This document shows positions 9,764-64,000 of a stretch of 64,000 nucleotides of DNA, one piece after another (the stretch's first letter is position 1; each line of letters starts with the position of its first letter). The notes beneath the pieces are model-generated. The model did no database searches. It saw only the letters and a program-made list of their open reading frames with translations, and was not told the DNA's origin. The stretch spans positions 1 through 64,000 of the forward strand of contig NZ_FOBD01000018.1 of NCBI RefSeq assembly GCF_900109515.1. The letters are read 5' to 3'. Made by a program: the position numbers and the translations under genes. This DNA is from Paenibacillus sp. OK003 (lineage in GTDB: Bacteria; Bacillota; Bacilli; Paenibacillales; Paenibacillaceae).

Positions 9764-10906
9764 TTAGTTGGTCGTCCGGTAAGGCAATATGACGTACAAG
9801 CTGTGACTGTCGTCCAGCGGTTTCAGGATGATCGGGCTCATGACACCAGTGAAAGCGATCATCAGCTGCTCACTCTCCACCACTTTCAGCACATCCAGCA
9901 TATATTTGGAGTTGAACGAGATTTTCAGCGGTTCGCCGTTAAAGTCGGCAGGTTCGATCTCTTCTCTTACTTTTCCCAGCTCGGAAGAGCTTGAAGAAAT
10001 TTCGATTGTTCCGGAATCCATCGTTTGCATCCGCACAATATTTGTTTTTTCTTCACGCGACAGCAAATAAGCCCGGTCGATAGATTCACTTAATTTTTTT
10101 GTATCCAAAACGAGTTCTGTTTTGTACGAAGTTGGAATAATTCTAGAAGTATCCGGATAAGTTCCGTCCAAAATGCGCGAATAGAACAGAACACGGTCAA
10201 TTTTGAAGAGGACTTGATTATCAGCAACAACGATATCCACAAGTGTATTTTGATCGGGCACGATTTTGCTGAGTTCGTTCAGCGTTTTACCAGAGATCAC
10301 CACATTGTTGAATCGCACACCTTCTGCATTATCCAGCATTGCTGAACGAGTAGCAAGACGGTGACGGTCCGTTGCCACAAATTTCAGTTCATTGTCACCC
10401 AAACTCCAGAGTACACCTGTCAGAATCGGCGTAGTTTCATGTGTGGAAATGGAGAATACGGTTTGTTTGATCATATTTTTGAGCAAATCTCCTGGAATGG
10501 AGACGGTTTGGTTTTCTTCGATGCTTGGCAATACTGGGAATTCTTCCGGATCAAGACCAACCAGTTGAATTTCGGTAGCTCCTGCGGATATAAAGGTGTT
10601 GAAGTTTTCTTTGACCTCCATGTGCACTTCTTGGGAAGGCAGCTTTTTGATGATCTCGACAAAAAACTTGGCTGGTAGTACAACGCTGCCTGGTTGTTCC
10701 ACCTGAACAACACTTTTATCTCCATCTTCAAGCGGGATGAAGGATTGAATTGAAATATCGGTGTCGCTTGCTGTCAACGTCACACCTTGATGATTAACGT
10801 CGAATTTGATACCGCTCAGAATTGGAATCGTCGTACGGCTCGAGATCGCTTTGGATACTTGCTGTATGGAATCGTTTAAATAGTTTTTCATTATGCTGAT
10901 TTTCAT
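9764..10906 (-). CDS. dnaN: DNA polymerase III beta subunit (sliding clamp)
   Basis: 380 aa, the usual length. DnaN forms the ring that holds polymerase and repair proteins on DNA. Recognised by MKISIMKNYLNDSIQQVSKAISSRTTIPIL at the N-terminus, the three-domain clamp pattern, and the C-terminal MSPIILKPLDDSHSLYVILPYRT that contributes to the peptide-binding pocket. ATG at 10906 follows TAGGAGTGAAACC. The 220-base gap to dnaA is the unwinding region of the origin. Confidence 0.98.
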   Translation of the reverse strand: MKISIMKNYLNDSIQQVSKAISSRTTIPILSGIKFDVNHQGVTLTASDTDISIQSFIPLEDGDKSVVQVEQPGSVVLPAKFFVEIIKKLPSQEVHMEVKENFNTFISAGATEIQLVGLDPEEFPVLPSIEENQTVSIPGDLLKNMIKQTVFSISTHETTPILTGVLWSLGDNELKFVATDRHRLATRSAMLDNAEGVRFNNVVISGKTLNELSKIVPDQNTLVDIVVADNQVLFKIDRVLFYSRILDGTYPDTSRIIPTSYKTELVLDTKKLSESIDRAYLLSREEKTNIVRMQTMDSGTIEISSSSSELGKVREEIEPADFNGEPLKISFNSKYMLDVLKVVESEQLMIAFTGVMSPIILKPLDDSHSLYVILPYRTTN

Positions 10907-10984
10907 GGTTTCACTCCTAGCTGATTTTTTGGTTGTTTGGTTGTTGAAAGGTGTTTTTCAAAGGCCGAAGGCTAAGCTTCAAAA

Positions 10985-11093
10985 TCGCGTATTTGGAGAT
11001 GATATCTTTTAGATCTTTATAGTAATAATAGTAATAGGGGCACTGAATATGTGGATAAGTGGGTATAAACCCATAAGCCCAAGCCTATCCACA
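10985..11093. other. oriC: oriC unwinding region with DnaA-trios (dnaA-dnaN gap)
   Basis: Read on the forward strand: an A+T-rich stretch (about 10988-11019), then six consecutive TAG/TAA triplets at 11020-11037, a GGGGC cluster, a perfect DnaA box TGTGGATAA at 11050-11058 and a one-mismatch box CTATCCACA at 11085-11093. This is the order known for the B. subtilis basal unwinding system (DnaA boxes, GC cluster, DnaA-trios, AT-rich DUE). Opening would start in the AT-rich part toward dnaN. A 9-bp inverted repeat (11078-11086 with 11112-11120) encloses the second box and may instead be part of the dnaA 3' end. Confidence 0.85.
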
Positions 11094-11126
11094 TGTGTAT
11101 ACGTTGTGCACAGGCTTGGGACTTAT

Positions 11127-12473
11127 TCAGGTTGGATTCTTAATTTTTTCGGTTAAGTTGTTGATAACTTTATAGAGATCCTGATCGACTTTAATCGCCT
11201 GGGAGATCTTTTCGTGCGCATGGATGACGGTGGTATGATCTCGCCCTCCAAATGCTTCACCGATTTTGGGCAGAGAAAAGTCTGTAAGTTCACGAGAGAG
11301 ATACATAGCAATCTGTCTTGGGAACGCAACGGCCTTGGTCCGTTTCCGTGCTTTGAAATCTTCAAGCTTAAGGCTGTAATACTCGCCGACCTTTTGTTGG
11401 ATGTCGTGAATAGTGATCATTTTCGGACGACTGGAAGGAATAATATCCTTCAGAGCTTCAGCTGCTAGATGAGTGGTTACATCTTGATTAGTCAGCGAAG
11501 AATAGGCAACAACCCGAATCAGGGCACCTTCCAGCTCACGAATATTGGTATCAATCTGGTTGGCGATATACATCATCGCCTCATTCGGAATATCCAGATT
11601 TTCCGCACGAGCTTTTTTACGCAAAATAGCAATCCGTGTCTCCAGATCTGGAGGCTGGATATCCGTAATTAACCCCCATTCAAAACGGGAACGAAGCCGT
11701 TCTTCCAGGGTCGGAATTTCCTTCGGCGGTCTGTCGCTGGAGATGATGATCTGTTTCCGTTCCTCATGCAGCGCATTAAACGTATGGAAAAATTCCTCTT
11801 GCGTCGATTCTTTTCCAGCCAAGAACTGAATATCATCAATGAGCAGAATATCGACACTACGGTATTTGTTACGGAAGCTCTCCCCGCGGTTGTCACGGAT
11901 CGAGTTAATGAATTCGTTCGTGAATTTCTCAGATGACAAATAAACAACTTTGCTGCCCGGATCATGCTCCAGGACGTAATGTCCGATCGCATGCATCAAG
12001 TGAGTTTTGCCGAGACCTACCCCTCCATAGAGAAACAGAGGATTGTATGCTTTGGCGGGCGCTTCAGCGACCGCCAGCGATGCGGCGTGGGCAAAACGGT
12101 TGCCCGGCCCAATGACAAAAGTATCGAATGTATATTTTGGATTCAGCATGCTGAGTACCGCTTCTTCCTGAACAACTGTAGGCGTTGGCGCTGGCAGTTG
12201 AGGGTCCGGTTCAGCAGGCTTGTTCTCCTCGATGACAAATTTCACATCGACCTGTTTGCCAAGCAGCTCATATACCGTCGATCCAACCAGTTTGGTGTAA
12301 CGGCTCTCCAGCCATTCGACGGCAAACGTGGTTGGTGCGGATATGACGATCGAACGATCATTCAGCTTGGTCGCTTTGGTTGCTTTGAACCAAGTGTCAA
12401 AGCTGGGTTTGCTGAGCTTGTTTTGTATAATTGATAAAATTTGCTGCCATAAATCAGAAGTATGGCTGTCCAC
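11127..12473 (-). CDS. dnaA: Chromosomal replication initiator DnaA
   Basis: 448 aa. DnaA binds DnaA boxes and, as an ATP filament, opens the origin and recruits the helicase. Domain I is residues ~1-80, a proline-rich linker ~85-105, the AAA+ core has Walker [11 protein letters not shown] (~149) and Walker B LLIDDIQF, and the C-terminal HTH carries [13 protein letters not shown]. Start is GTG at 12473, 9 bases after AAAGGAG. It is transcribed from 12681-12709 and flanked by DnaA boxes on both sides, as expected for autoregulation. Confidence 0.98.
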
Positions 12474-60208: not shown

Positions 60209-62058
60209 TGGGGCGTTTCTCGCGATTTTCGTTCTTTCGAACGATTCAGGCGAAACTGATTATTATCTATGTACTGCTGATTCTGATTGCGATGCAACTG
60301 ATCGGCGTTTATTTTGTGAGTGCGATGAAGAACTCGCTGACCAGCAACTTCACTGAGGATTTGCAGGCACGTGCAGAGATGCTGTCGGTGCTTGTGGGAG
60401 AGACGATGGCTGGTGGGGAAGCTGAGGCTGGCGAGGACAAAACGGAAAACCTGCGTGTGTTGGTAAACAGCCTGTTCAACATTAACGGCGCCGAGATTCA
60501 GGTGCTGGATGCCAGCGGCAAAGTGCTGACCACCTCGCTCAGTTCCCACTCAGACTATGTTGGGCGCAAAAACACCCAAACCGTTGTCAGCCGTGCGCTG
60601 CAAGGCATTCGGGACAATGAGGAATATATCGTGGACGAGGATAATGTTCGCAAAAAGGTCGTTGCCAAGCCGGTGCTGTCCGGCGGCAAGATTGTCGGCG
60701 CGGTCTACATCGCCGCTTCGATGAATGAGTTATATGCCACAATGGAGGGCATTAACAAGATTTTTATCTCCGGCATTTTGATTGCCTTGGTATTAACCGC
60801 AGTGCTTGGTGTCATTCTGTCACATACGATTACGCAGCCGATCAAGGAAGTTACCCGAAGGGCGACGGCGGTCGCGGAAGGCAACTTCGATCAGCAGACG
60901 CCTGTATTCGGAACGGATGAGATTGGACAGCTCAGTCGGGCGTTCAACTATATGACTAGCAGATTGCGAGATGCACTCTCCCAGAACGAAGAGGAGAAGG
61001 AGAAGCTCACGTCCATTCTGACCAATATGAGTGATGGCGTGGTCGCCACGGACGAATATGGCAAAGTCATTCTGGTGAACCGGCGTGCCAGCAGCATTCT
61101 GGGCATGCGTCCGGCGGACATTGAAGGAAGGCACTTTGCCGTATTGCTCGGCATTGATCCGGAAGATGCGGAAGCGTTAGCCAGTGGTTTTACAGGCTCG
61201 ACGCTGCTCCAGATTGCACCTGCGGGACAGGAAGATCCTGTTGTTATCCGCATGACGTTTACACCGGTTCATCGTCGTGAACTGGGCATTACCGGCACGA
61301 TCGCTGTGCTTCAGGACGTTACGGAGCAGGAAGAACTGGAAGCTTCACGGCGTGAATTTGTGGCGAATGTCTCTCATGAGCTGCGTACACCGTTGACTAC
61401 TATTAAGAGCTACGCGGAAGCGCTGGATGATGGGGCTCTTGAAGATCCGCAGCTCGCTGGACGATTCGTTGGGGTAATCCAGAATGAGACGGAGCGAATG
61501 ATACGACTGGTTACGGATCTGCTGCATTTATCGCGGCTTGATTCCAAAGAGGCTTTGCTACGGAAACAGCCAACTGACATCCTGGAAATGTTGGAGGAAG
61601 TGACGGATCGATTCTCGTTTCAGATGCATCAGAAGGATATTCAGCCTGTGTTGTCTGTAGAGAATGATATTCCGGCTGTTCCGCTGGATCGCGATCAGAT
61701 TGACCAGGTGCTGGATAATGTCGTGTCCAATGCGCTGAAATATACATTAGAAGGCGGCACTATTACGATTGCGGCTAGACGCAGTGATGAACACACACTT
61801 GCCATCTCGGTATCGGATACCGGAATGGGTATCCCACAGCGCGATCTGGATCGCATTTTTGAGCGGTTTTATCGGGTGGACAAGGCTCGTTCCCGCAGTA
61901 TGGGAGGCACAGGGCTAGGACTGTCCATTGCCCGGGAAATTGTGAAGGCACATGATGGCAATATCTCACTGGAGTCCGAGGTGGACGTGGGGACGACGGT
62001 AACGTTCACACTGCCCATGCGTGAGGAAGGAGGTGAGCACCTTGAAAGAGCGGATTAA
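60208..62058 (+). CDS. walK: Sensor histidine kinase WalK (YycG)
   Basis: 616 aa. TM1 ~15-37, an extracytoplasmic sensor domain, TM2 ~190-212, HAMP (~213-265, TQPIKEVTRRATAVAEGNFDQQTP), PAS (~270-375), HisKA with H in NVSHELRTPLTTIKSYAE, and HATPase with DNVVSNALKYT, VSDTGMGIPQ and GGTGLGLSIARE. Phosphorylates WalR. ATG at 60208; walH starts 17 bases before its end. Confidence 0.96.
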   Translation: MGRFSRFSFFRTIQAKLIIIYVLLILIAMQLIGVYFVSAMKNSLTSNFTEDLQARAEMLSVLVGETMAGGEAEAGEDKTENLRVLVNSLFNINGAEIQVLDASGKVLTTSLSSHSDYVGRKNTQTVVSRALQGIRDNEEYIVDEDNVRKKVVAKPVLSGGKIVGAVYIAASMNELYATMEGINKIFISGILIALVLTAVLGVILSHTITQPIKEVTRRATAVAEGNFDQQTPVFGTDEIGQLSRAFNYMTSRLRDALSQNEEEKEKLTSILTNMSDGVVATDEYGKVILVNRRASSILGMRPADIEGRHFAVLLGIDPEDAEALASGFTGSTLLQIAPAGQEDPVVIRMTFTPVHRRELGITGTIAVLQDVTEQEELEASRREFVANVSHELRTPLTTIKSYAEALDDGALEDPQLAGRFVGVIQNETERMIRLVTDLLHLSRLDSKEALLRKQPTDILEMLEEVTDRFSFQMHQKDIQPVLSVENDIPAVPLDRDQIDQVLDNVVSNALKYTLEGGTITIAARRSDEHTLAISVSDTGMGIPQRDLDRIFERFYRVDKARSRSMGGTGLGLSIAREIVKAHDGNISLESEVDVGTTVTFTLPMREEGGEHLERAD

Positions 62059-63322
62059 ATCTCTGGTGCTTGCTTCCCTCGTCGTTGCCAGTTTGGTACA
62101 AAGTTACTTCTTGATCTATCGTTTGCCCGGTGGGGGCGATTCGATTGTGACGTCAGAGACGAACTATGTGAAAACCGAGAATATGGGCCAGGAGCGCAAT
62201 ATTGAAGATTTAATTTTCCCTGATCAGATGGTTATTCATCTGGGAGAGGACAAACATACGGTGTTTTATCCGGGCAATACGTTCTATCAGTTGATCTATT
62301 CACGGTTGCAGGGACGTACGTTTGATGATTTCCAGCGTCGGAGTGTGCAGTCGGTCAACTGGAATCAGATTCGTAAGGAGAATCCTGGCTTTGAGCTGTC
62401 GTTCAAGGAAGGCATCCCTGTAGCGTTGTTACAGCGCGTGATGCGACTCGGGACAGACTCTCTCTTCCAGGGTGAGACGATTAACCGGATCTCGATCTAT
62501 ACGGCCAAAAATGAAACAAAGGCTCACGCACTGTTCTTCAGCGCCAAAGGCGATGTGGTCTACGAGGCGACGCAGGCGGATCTGACAGTACAGGACGTGC
62601 AGCAGCACGTCGACTTCGGCAGCAGCTGGACACCTTATACGCTGATGGACGGCGGATATTATATCCCGGCAGAAGCACTGGAGACGATTGAGGCTGACGT
62701 GCCTACAGGCCAGTTCACTGTCGAACAAATGCAGCGCAGCCTATTCTTTGATCCAAGCATGACCCGAAATATTCGGGAAAAGGATGGATCGGAGATCTAT
62801 ACAGACAGCAAGCGCAGTCTGCAAGTAAAGCAAGAACAGCGCTGGATTAGCTACACCGATCCAGCGGCACCCCCTGCGGGACAGATTGACGCAGCGAAGG
62901 ATGCGCTGTCCGCGGTTGATTTTGTGAATCAGCATGGCGGCTGGAAAGGTCGTTCGCGCATGATGCTGGACACTACCGATACAAAGACGAAGCTTCAGTT
63001 CCAGCAATATTACAGCAGCTTCCCAATTATGGACTCGATGCAGTTCCGGTTCGGCACGATCAGCATGGAGATGCAGCAGCAGACGGTATCCAGCTATGAA
63101 CGTTCGCTTGAATATCTGAACGAAGGCGCGGAGACGAAGAAATCGGTCACTCTTCCCGGAGGGGACAAGCTGAAGGCGCTCATCCAGAAGGTGGCGGGAA
63201 CCAATCGGAAGGTTGTAGACGTGTATCCGGCGTACCGTCCATCCGGCATTGAGGATGGACTGAAGCTCATCCCGGTGTGGGTAATCCGTTTCGGAAACGG
63301 GGAGGAAACCACCGTTTCTTGA
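62042..63322 (+). CDS. walH: WalK modulator WalH (YycH)
   Basis: 426 aa. One N-terminal membrane helix (~5-27) and a large extracytoplasmic part, as in YycH, which with YycI restrains or tunes WalK at the membrane. Identified by topology, length and place directly after walK. TTG at 62042 lies 8 bases after AAGGAGG within the walK end; an open frame from GTG 62021 overlaps that site. Confidence 0.9.
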   Translation: MKERIKSLVLASLVVASLVQSYFLIYRLPGGGDSIVTSETNYVKTENMGQERNIEDLIFPDQMVIHLGEDKHTVFYPGNTFYQLIYSRLQGRTFDDFQRRSVQSVNWNQIRKENPGFELSFKEGIPVALLQRVMRLGTDSLFQGETINRISIYTAKNETKAHALFFSAKGDVVYEATQADLTVQDVQQHVDFGSSWTPYTLMDGGYYIPAEALETIEADVPTGQFTVEQMQRSLFFDPSMTRNIREKDGSEIYTDSKRSLQVKQEQRWISYTDPAAPPAGQIDAAKDALSAVDFVNQHGGWKGRSRMMLDTTDTKTKLQFQQYYSSFPIMDSMQFRFGTISMEMQQQTVSSYERSLEYLNEGAETKKSVTLPGGDKLKALIQKVAGTNRKVVDVYPAYRPSGIEDGLKLIPVWVIRFGNGEETTVS

Positions 63323-63404
63323 TGGGTTATAGGATATGAAGTCATTTGATATCCGGGCGAGGTTTAGAATCACACGTTAACGGAGGGGGCAGAAATAACC
63401 TGAA

Positions 63405-63535
63405 GAAGCGAAGCTACAAGCTTTCTGAAAGAAAGCTACTTCGGAAGCATAGGCTTCGCCTTTATCCCCGGATTTCTCCCTTGGGAAAAGGGAATCAAGA
63501 AATCTGGGGATAACAGCGATCGGAAGGTTGTTCTG
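63405..63535. repeat. Multi-hairpin element between walH and walI
   Basis: Two adjacent stem-loops. The first is closed by GCGAAGC/GCTTCGC (63409-63415, 63454-63460), with an inner AGCTTTC/GAAAGCT. The second has 16-base arms, TTATCCCC.GATTTCT and AGAAATC.GGGGATAA (about 63464-63479 and 63498-63513), differing at one position, with CCCTT/AAGGG inside. No T run follows, so it is not a classic terminator. The order and the following GCGATCGGAAGG look like a dispersed Paenibacillus intergenic repeat I have seen before, but no second copy is in this window. Confidence 0.6.
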
Positions 63536-63593
63536 ACCACGGAGTGGTAAGTGTGATGGTAGTCGTATTTATCAAATGATGGAGGTGAATGTT

Positions 63594-64000
63594 TTGGATT
63601 GGGGACGGGCGAAAAATGTGTTGATCTATGCCTTCCTGCTGCTCAATCTGGTGCTGGGATACCAGATCTGGATGGATGCGCGGGAGACGGCCGGAGCCAA
63701 TCTGGACTTCACCTCGCTGGCGGATAATACACAACAGGCGATGGAGGAGAAGGGCATTCAGGTGCTGGCTCCTATTCCGAATGAGACGCCGAAGCTACCG
63801 AAGCTGTCGTATGAGTTCATTGAAGATAACAAGACAGGCATTGATGTTGAACTGGAAAATACCGTGGACAGCAAGCTGATCTTCTCGCAAAGCGAGCTGG
63901 AGGATGCACTACAGGACGAGATTCCCCAGATTGGTACGTATCGATGGGATCAGCTGATGGCGGAGGATGGGGCATTTGTGCTTCATCCGTTGGTGGATGG
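63594..64000 (+). CDS. walI: WalK modulator WalI (YycI), 5' part
   Basis: The first 135 codons are present; the gene runs past the window end. TTG 63594 is 6 bases after GGAGGTG and reads MDWGRAKNVLIYAFLLLNLV, a short N-terminal helix typical of YycI, then QIWMDARETAGANLDF. The frame stays open to 64000. WalI is the partner of WalH. It is 271 bases after walH, much further than in B. subtilis, because of the hairpin element. Confidence 0.9.
   Translation, partial: MDWGRAKNVLIYAFLLLNLVLGYQIWMDARETAGANLDFTSLADNTQQAMEEKGIQVLAPIPNETPKLPKLSYEFIEDNKTGIDVELENTVDSKLIFSQSELEDALQDEIPQIGTYRWDQLMAEDGAFVLHPLVD

Follow-up and report, generated by a model that had tools for sequence, protein, structure and literature searches.

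The gap between walH and walI of Paenibacillus sp. OK003 contains a copy of a dispersed element whose family, in this genome, is a MITE that carries a structured RNA as cargo, has inverted repeats at its termini and duplicates TA; the family, its structure and its mobility are shown. Concerning its function, the odds appear about even that the walH-walI copy is an old member of this family whose conserved RNA acts in cis on the polycistronic mRNA as a cistron boundary, either by processing or by protection. Many intergenic gaps in Paenibacillus would be explained by a structured RNA that covaries across the order, is present in more than 100 copies in this genome and matches no Rfam family. 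The element moreover unites mobile repeats and conserved RNA structure, which are usually treated apart, and it offers a testable case for mobile DNA entering operons and turning into an expression boundary.

Anatomy of the walH-walI copy

The window, i.e., the whole stretch of 64,000 nt that was analyzed (contig NZ_FOBD01000018.1, positions 1 to 64,000), ends within walI, which on the contig extends over 63594-64334 and starts with a TTG codon at 63594, so that the walH-walI gap measures 271 nt (63323-63593). The segment 63380-63560 folds at -68.8 kcal/mol, compared to -49.55 +- 4.18 kcal/mol in 200 dinucleotide shuffles (z -4.61), none of which folded as well. The initial annotation had described two adjacent strong stem-loops without a T run at 63405-63535. 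The fold was thus found to be real and no terminator-like site was found with it, but the hairpins are not a free-standing pair: one is a module of about 39 nt (about 63415-63453), the other the long arm of a branched structure. The extent given for them was also too narrow, as the conserved core comprises 63374-63553 and is flanked by two outer arms (63341-63351 and 63570-63580). The features of the locus, all on the + strand, are listed below; P0 and H1 of this copy were assigned from family alignments, and in the minimum-energy fold of the copy by itself some of the bases concerned have other partners.

62042..63322, +: walH (YycH), upstream cistron; Pfam PF07435 YycH, E 3.8e-45
63341..63351, +: left outer arm GTCATTTGATA, a degenerate terminal inverted repeat; 11 bp with 63570-63580 in the fold, diverged from the family ends
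63374..63553, +: structured conserved core including the extra module; covariance model R1, 125 bits, E 1.7e-37
63380..63385, +: P0 5' strand ACGGAG, facing CGGAGT at 63540-63545 with an internal loop of purines; assigned by homology, with covariation at alignment columns 17-18/146-147 and 22/142
63390..63401, +: P1 5' strand CAGAAATAACCT, partner AGGTTGTTCTG at 63525-63535; by covariation (columns 26-29/135-138 and 36-39/127-130)
63408..63414, +: H1 mini-hairpin GC-GAA-GC with GNA loop; by homology, columns 46/53
63415..63453, +: extra hairpin module of about 39 nt, borders +-2 nt; missing at the same locus in G056, G020 and G066
63455..63460, +: P2 5' strand TTCGCC, facing GCGATCG at 63516-63522; columns 54-59/118-123
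63461..63476, +: P3 5' strand TTTATCCCCGGATTTC, partner at 63499-63513; columns 62-76/101-115
63499..63513, +: P3 3' strand GAAATCTGGGGATAA; by covariation and fold
63514..63526, +: strongly conserved stretch CAGCGATCGGAAG, comprising the P2 3' strand, the junction and the start of the P1 3' strand; pattern ATAACAGCGATCGGAAGG
63540..63545, +: P0 3' strand CGGAGT; by homology
63570..63580, +: right outer arm, abutting the Shine-Dalgarno-like GGAGG of walI (63581-63585)
63594..63998, +: walI (YycI), downstream cistron, extending beyond the window; Pfam PF09648 YycI, E 1.4e-14 (full protein)

An intrinsic terminator or a promoter was considered as content of the gap and rejected, since a scan of 63300-63620 yielded no site resembling either; another copy of the element (L041) contains one promoter-like and one terminator-like site, close to the number obtained in shuffles. 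A search of 63000-64000 against Rfam 15 with E up to 5 yielded no family at gathering threshold. The five matches returned belong to microRNA, snoRNA and MAT2A models, all lie far under threshold and were read as chance. Elsewhere in the window, dnaN and dnaA are located on the minus strand at 9764-12473 (dnaA at 11127-12473), which places the replication origin probably inside the window.

Copy number, structure and distribution of the family

Searching the genome of origin with 63380-63560 yielded 51 matches (40 of 142 first-look candidates scored). With a covariance model built from 62 copies, for which 150 of 2430 candidates were scored, the number rose to 135 (E 0.001 or better), including some fragments and three matches that are partial shadows, on the reverse strand, of other copies. 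The core pattern ATAACAGCGATCGGAAGG with up to three mismatches likewise occurs 135 times in this genome, against a single occurrence of the reversed pattern. Beyond it, 69 of the 75 genomes of the genus contain a match to a 192-nt consensus, and the covariance model finds the element in 121 of 148 genomes of the family (13 of 19 genera) and in 104 of 149 genomes of the order (21 of 38 genera), 43 of these 104 being outside the family. In named genomes, an exact 26-nt core pattern matches 58 stretches, each of them labeled Paenibacillus. The suspicion of a small dispersed repeat was therefore correct, and the copy count together with the covariation described below excludes a single-copy sequence without paired changes in relatives, the case that the initial annotation had set against its own proposal. 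Two structured cores no more than a few hundred bases apart were seen at three loci (L283, L268 and L335).

An alignment of 62 short copies from the same genome provides the fold plan: a closing stem P0-P1, a GRAGAA junction, the mini-hairpin H1 (GC-GNA-GC), the P2-P3 arm and the return strand CAGCGATCGGAAG, which together form a branched conserved RNA structure of about 140 nt. In these copies 97.3% of the cells are paired and double changes occur at 21 of 32 pairs, including 11 of the 19 pairs of helix 6 (P2 and P3; own-copy alignment A1). Double-change cells number 137, as compared to 32.7 +- 6.5 in shuffled alignments, and none of 500 shuffles reached 137; these cells count copies rather than events, and the copies are related. 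In H1, the pair at columns 46/53 is GC in 58 copies and AU in the other 4 of the 62, and 56 copies have a loop of the GNA or GNNA type. GNA and GNNA loops form very stable mini-hairpins in DNA, and it is worth a thought that the loop preference of H1 reflects a role of single-stranded DNA in copying.

The same structure is retained with different letters in other genera, in which 60 full matches (59 of them distinct) have 97.5% of their cells paired. Here, 403 double-change cells were counted, as compared to 84.1 +- 8.2 after shuffling and 96 in the best slid control, in an alignment (A3) that was fitted to the model and is thus biased toward the model structure. Taken with the pairing in the own-genome copies, these paired changes bear out the earlier suggestion of a structured RNA. 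A second subfamily has the same core and a different yet still pairing P1 stem, and was found at 14 sites, of which L032 and L034 are nested halves. The middle module is optional: 34 of 96 anchored copies in the genome of origin have a longer spacing, and the module of about 39 nt is variably present at the same place in relatives.

Mobility, ends and the walH-walI locus in relatives

Many copies in the genome of origin carry inverted-repeat ends near TATATAAGTTGAACTAAACATTTACAC, and at 31 of 106 sites both ends are within the score limit. Of these 31 copies, 20 have a C directly ahead of TA and 21 have a G directly following it. The joined flanks of six end-bearing copies were searched in ten relatives and 20 loci were then read. 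For all six copies a match spanning the join was obtained in at least one relative, and split matches, as for a filled site, in other relatives. At the empty sites that were read, a single TA was present for C32 (4 of 4), C40 (4 of 5), C22 (3 of 5) and C17 (3 of 6), the remainder being diverged; for C31 and C10 the empty sites are given by join-spanning rows. Terminal inverted repeats and, against the empty sites, duplication of TA at younger copies (four loci, all other than the walH-walI copy) agree with the MITE-like nature that the initial annotation had considered. Of such ends, the walH-walI copy has kept only the diverged 11-bp inverted repeat.

The core is found between more than one kind of ends. 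P. daejeonensis contains a core of the same design inside other ends, near TCAGGCTGTTGAAAAA, and both of these ends are present within 5 of 16 mismatches at 18 of 32 usable copies, compared to 8 of 2000 random places; the two end sequences around the core, TATAAGTTGAACTAAA and TCAGGCTGTTGAAAAA, are unlike each other. A third end type, near AGTCCGGTGAATAA, surrounds the same core at two loci (L332, 7464-7618, and L342, 3618-3771). Arms-only forms that kept the ends and apparently lost the core were also noticed (L156, in C34 near 56897, and L146, in G040). An autonomous parent was considered for three end matches without a core, in C25, C34 and C32, and rejected, as they seem to be a copy cut short, a copy that lost its core and a weak match, respectively; open reading frames are listed for the end matches in C25 and C34. 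The single far-apart pair of ends among the retrieved loci (L057) consists of the ends of two neighboring copies.

At the walH-walI locus, walI is present in 75 genomes and the gap was read in 46 of them (29 of 30 and 17 of 17). The element is in forward orientation in 10 and in reverse orientation in 13 (3 of them truncated or interrupted), so that the reverse type is the commoner one here, against the genome-wide trend. The other 23 gaps comprise 8 with a remnant of the reverse type, 1 with arms only (G040) and 14 without a trace by the probes used; two of the latter measure only 56 and 58 nt by stop-codon reading. Since relatives have the element forward, reverse, as a remnant or not at all, it is not required for the operon. 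The genome of the window carries it forward, whereas a genome of the same species carries it reverse between unlike flanks, which is most simply explained by independent insertions or exchanged alleles. The module of about 39 nt is equally patchy among near neighbors and therefore seems to come and go: it is present in the window, G051, G012, G021 and G028 (there in the reverse allele), and G056, G020 and G066 lack it, as do G067 and G039 despite their close similarity to G051.

Covariation support at this locus is modest because divergence there is low. The forward allele (9 distinct copies) has one double-changed pair, and shuffles matched its covariation score in 8 of 500 and its pair number in 362 of 500 cases; for the reverse allele (10 copies), with four double-changed pairs, the corresponding values are 0 of 500 and 185 of 500. 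A different repeat (around CTAACGAATCTGACA ... TCAGATTCGTTAGATT) occupies the gap in several relatives (L131, L135, L137, L138 and L153). As this repeat both fills the gap and interrupts a reverse-type element, the walH-walI gap looks like a hot spot for repeats.

Orientation, recurrence and proposed role

Wobble pairs indicate which strand is folded. G-U cells outnumber A-C cells by 74:16 in the own-genome copies (31:5 when the two most extreme pairs are left out) and by 68:10 in other genera, which identifies the + strand as the one kept folded. Gene context was evaluated with calls from a simple custom caller at 106 core sites, compared to 135 by pattern, including a few chance or partial cores such as L085 inside a called gene. 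The element was tandem and co-oriented with its neighboring genes at 66 sites, tandem and opposed at 8, between divergent genes at 17 and between convergent genes at 12; two further sites have no upstream gene in view and one is inside a gene. The ratio of 66 to 8 among the 74 tandem sites corresponds to p 1.8e-12, with neighboring sites not fully independent. Similarly, 57 loci from other genera comprise 37 tandem co-oriented, 6 tandem opposed, 2 divergent and 10 convergent sites, with one in a gene and one at an end, and 33 copies of P. daejeonensis comprise 17 tandem co-oriented and 5 tandem opposed (p 0.017), 5 divergent and 4 convergent sites, with 2 at ends. The conserved structure thus lies on the strand that is read with the genes.

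Replication direction was considered as a cause of this bias in a closed genome of the same species, with the origin position inferred from the positions of dnaA and wal. Among the 50 of 68 sites that were read, 37 are in leading-strand direction; tandem leading-strand genes have the element co-oriented in 28 and opposed in 4 cases, and tandem lagging-strand genes in 4 and 0 cases. As all four lagging-strand sites follow the genes, gene direction appears to be the better predictor, with lagging-strand numbers being small, and replication was rejected as the cause. The ends are inverted repeats of each other and should therefore not generate an orientation bias by themselves, for which reason a promoter located there was dismissed as well. 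Loss of reverse insertions, without any benefit from the element, could nevertheless be the source of the bias. The convergent sites of other genera (10 of 57) fit a role in the 3' UTR or mere tolerance equally well.

The best hint of a use by the host is the recurrence of the element at the same intercistronic places in low-copy genera, for which the best match per genome was read. In one genus, whose genomes have one to three matches each, 10 genomes were read at one locus apiece: four contain the element in the gap between citrate synthase and isocitrate dehydrogenase (L273, L281, L282 and L287) and four in the ilvC-leuA gap (L276, L277, L279 and L285), with the gene families confirmed for L273 and L276. 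Of the remaining two, L284 has the element before an apparent leuA start, the upstream gene not being read, and L288 elsewhere. In Bacillus subtilis, the ilv-leu transcript undergoes processing at intercistronic positions. In three genomes of another genus, the single match is flanked by a gene for a ROK-type kinase, scoring under the curated cut-off, and by one that matches no NCBIfam family, and two more genomes of this genus (G218 and G226) gave no match to the covariance model.

From polarity, placement and recurrence we infer that the element is transcribed and acts on mRNA, presumably through processing or stability. If the walH-walI copy serves as a cistron boundary, the structured RNA, which in this genome travels as the cargo of a MITE, would, once inserted between co-transcribed genes, be read in sense direction into the polycistronic mRNA and fold there. 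Its compact fold would then mark the boundary at which the transcript is processed or protected, and the downstream gene could thereby be expressed independently of the upstream one. A broader proposal, which can be put forward only tentatively, is that of an undescribed order-wide class of cis-acting RNAs that two or more dissimilar sets of transposon ends, at the least, have come to carry as cargo. Such an RNA would cleave, protect or insulate the transcript and so turn insertion into an operon into a harmless or useful event, which would allow a mobile element to settle between co-transcribed genes, with some copies fixed, e.g., in the ilvC-leuA and citrate synthase-isocitrate dehydrogenase gaps.

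It is conceivable, if somewhat doubtful, that the element is nothing but a selfish MITE whose hairpin is kept for transposition or copying and whose bias results from the loss of reverse insertions that harm transcription. Points in its favor are the inverted terminal repeats, the TA duplication, a preference for C before and G after TA, the absence of each of the six tested insertions from one relative or more, with some relatives sharing the insertion, the high copy number with decaying copies, and, at walH-walI, the retention of both orientations. However, what can be recognized across genera is the core, which P. daejeonensis has within other ends; where a genus has one to three copies, different species share the places of the element; and the folding strand has a preferred direction relative to the genes.

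Two further readings keep an action of the RNA in cis and differ from a cistron boundary in its nature. A regulated leader that binds a ligand or a protein and controls the downstream gene in the manner of a riboswitch or attenuator might be suspected from the branched structure with its conserved unpaired junction and internal loops, as well as from the median distance of 65.5 nt between core end and start codon at the 66 tandem co-oriented sites. It is nevertheless improbable given more than 100 copies in one genome, the negative search for an intrinsic terminator in the gap of the window and the 10 of 57 sites in other genera at which the element precedes an opposed gene. Slightly less probable still is an RNA that would open or remove itself in the transcript by self-cleavage or splicing: the conserved multi-way junction with nearly invariant purines and the sense-direction placement between genes might be taken for it, but no Rfam ribozyme or intron match was obtained for 63000-64000 with E up to 5. 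A hammerhead ribozyme, suggested by a CUGANGA-like string, was dropped, as P1 closes both sides of this string.

Among the papers found for Paenibacillus, for ilvC-leuA processing, for BOX and for bcr, none describes the element as far as titles and the beginnings of abstracts tell, and an order-wide structured core joined to different mobile ends was not met in the portions of the literature searched. The closest known repeats, likened by description, are the BOX, ERIC, Correia and bcr elements. BOX of Streptococcus pneumoniae is, in the excerpted source, a modular repeat with an RNA-like fold and a dispensable middle module, some copies of which are transcribed (PMC3049150), and the element described here resembles it in all three structural respects. 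Unlike BOX, which according to the same excerpt is significantly over-represented between convergent genes (PMC3049150), it is found predominantly at tandem co-oriented sites. For the Bacillus cereus group, the accessible part of the source describes bcr1-3 as MITE-like repeats in UTRs and operon gaps and bcr10 and bcr18 as conserved RNA structures (PMC3446304). Both properties are shared by the Paenibacillus element, but what is distributed there over separate families (PMC3446304, as excerpted) is united here in one order-wide family. ERIC and Correia elements are, by description, intergenic MITEs as well, with other bacteria as hosts; their transcripts are reported in the sections seen to be cleaved by RNase E, in an orientation-dependent manner, and by RNase III, respectively (PMC3049150, PMC10969869). 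REP and BIME sequences are likewise intergenic, structured and repeated. REPs are, however, palindromes of 20-40 bp in the excerpted source (PMC3733652), whereas six copies of the Paenibacillus element measure 192-235 nt end to end with terminal TA, and the REP-like character proposed for the walH-walI hairpins was accordingly given up.
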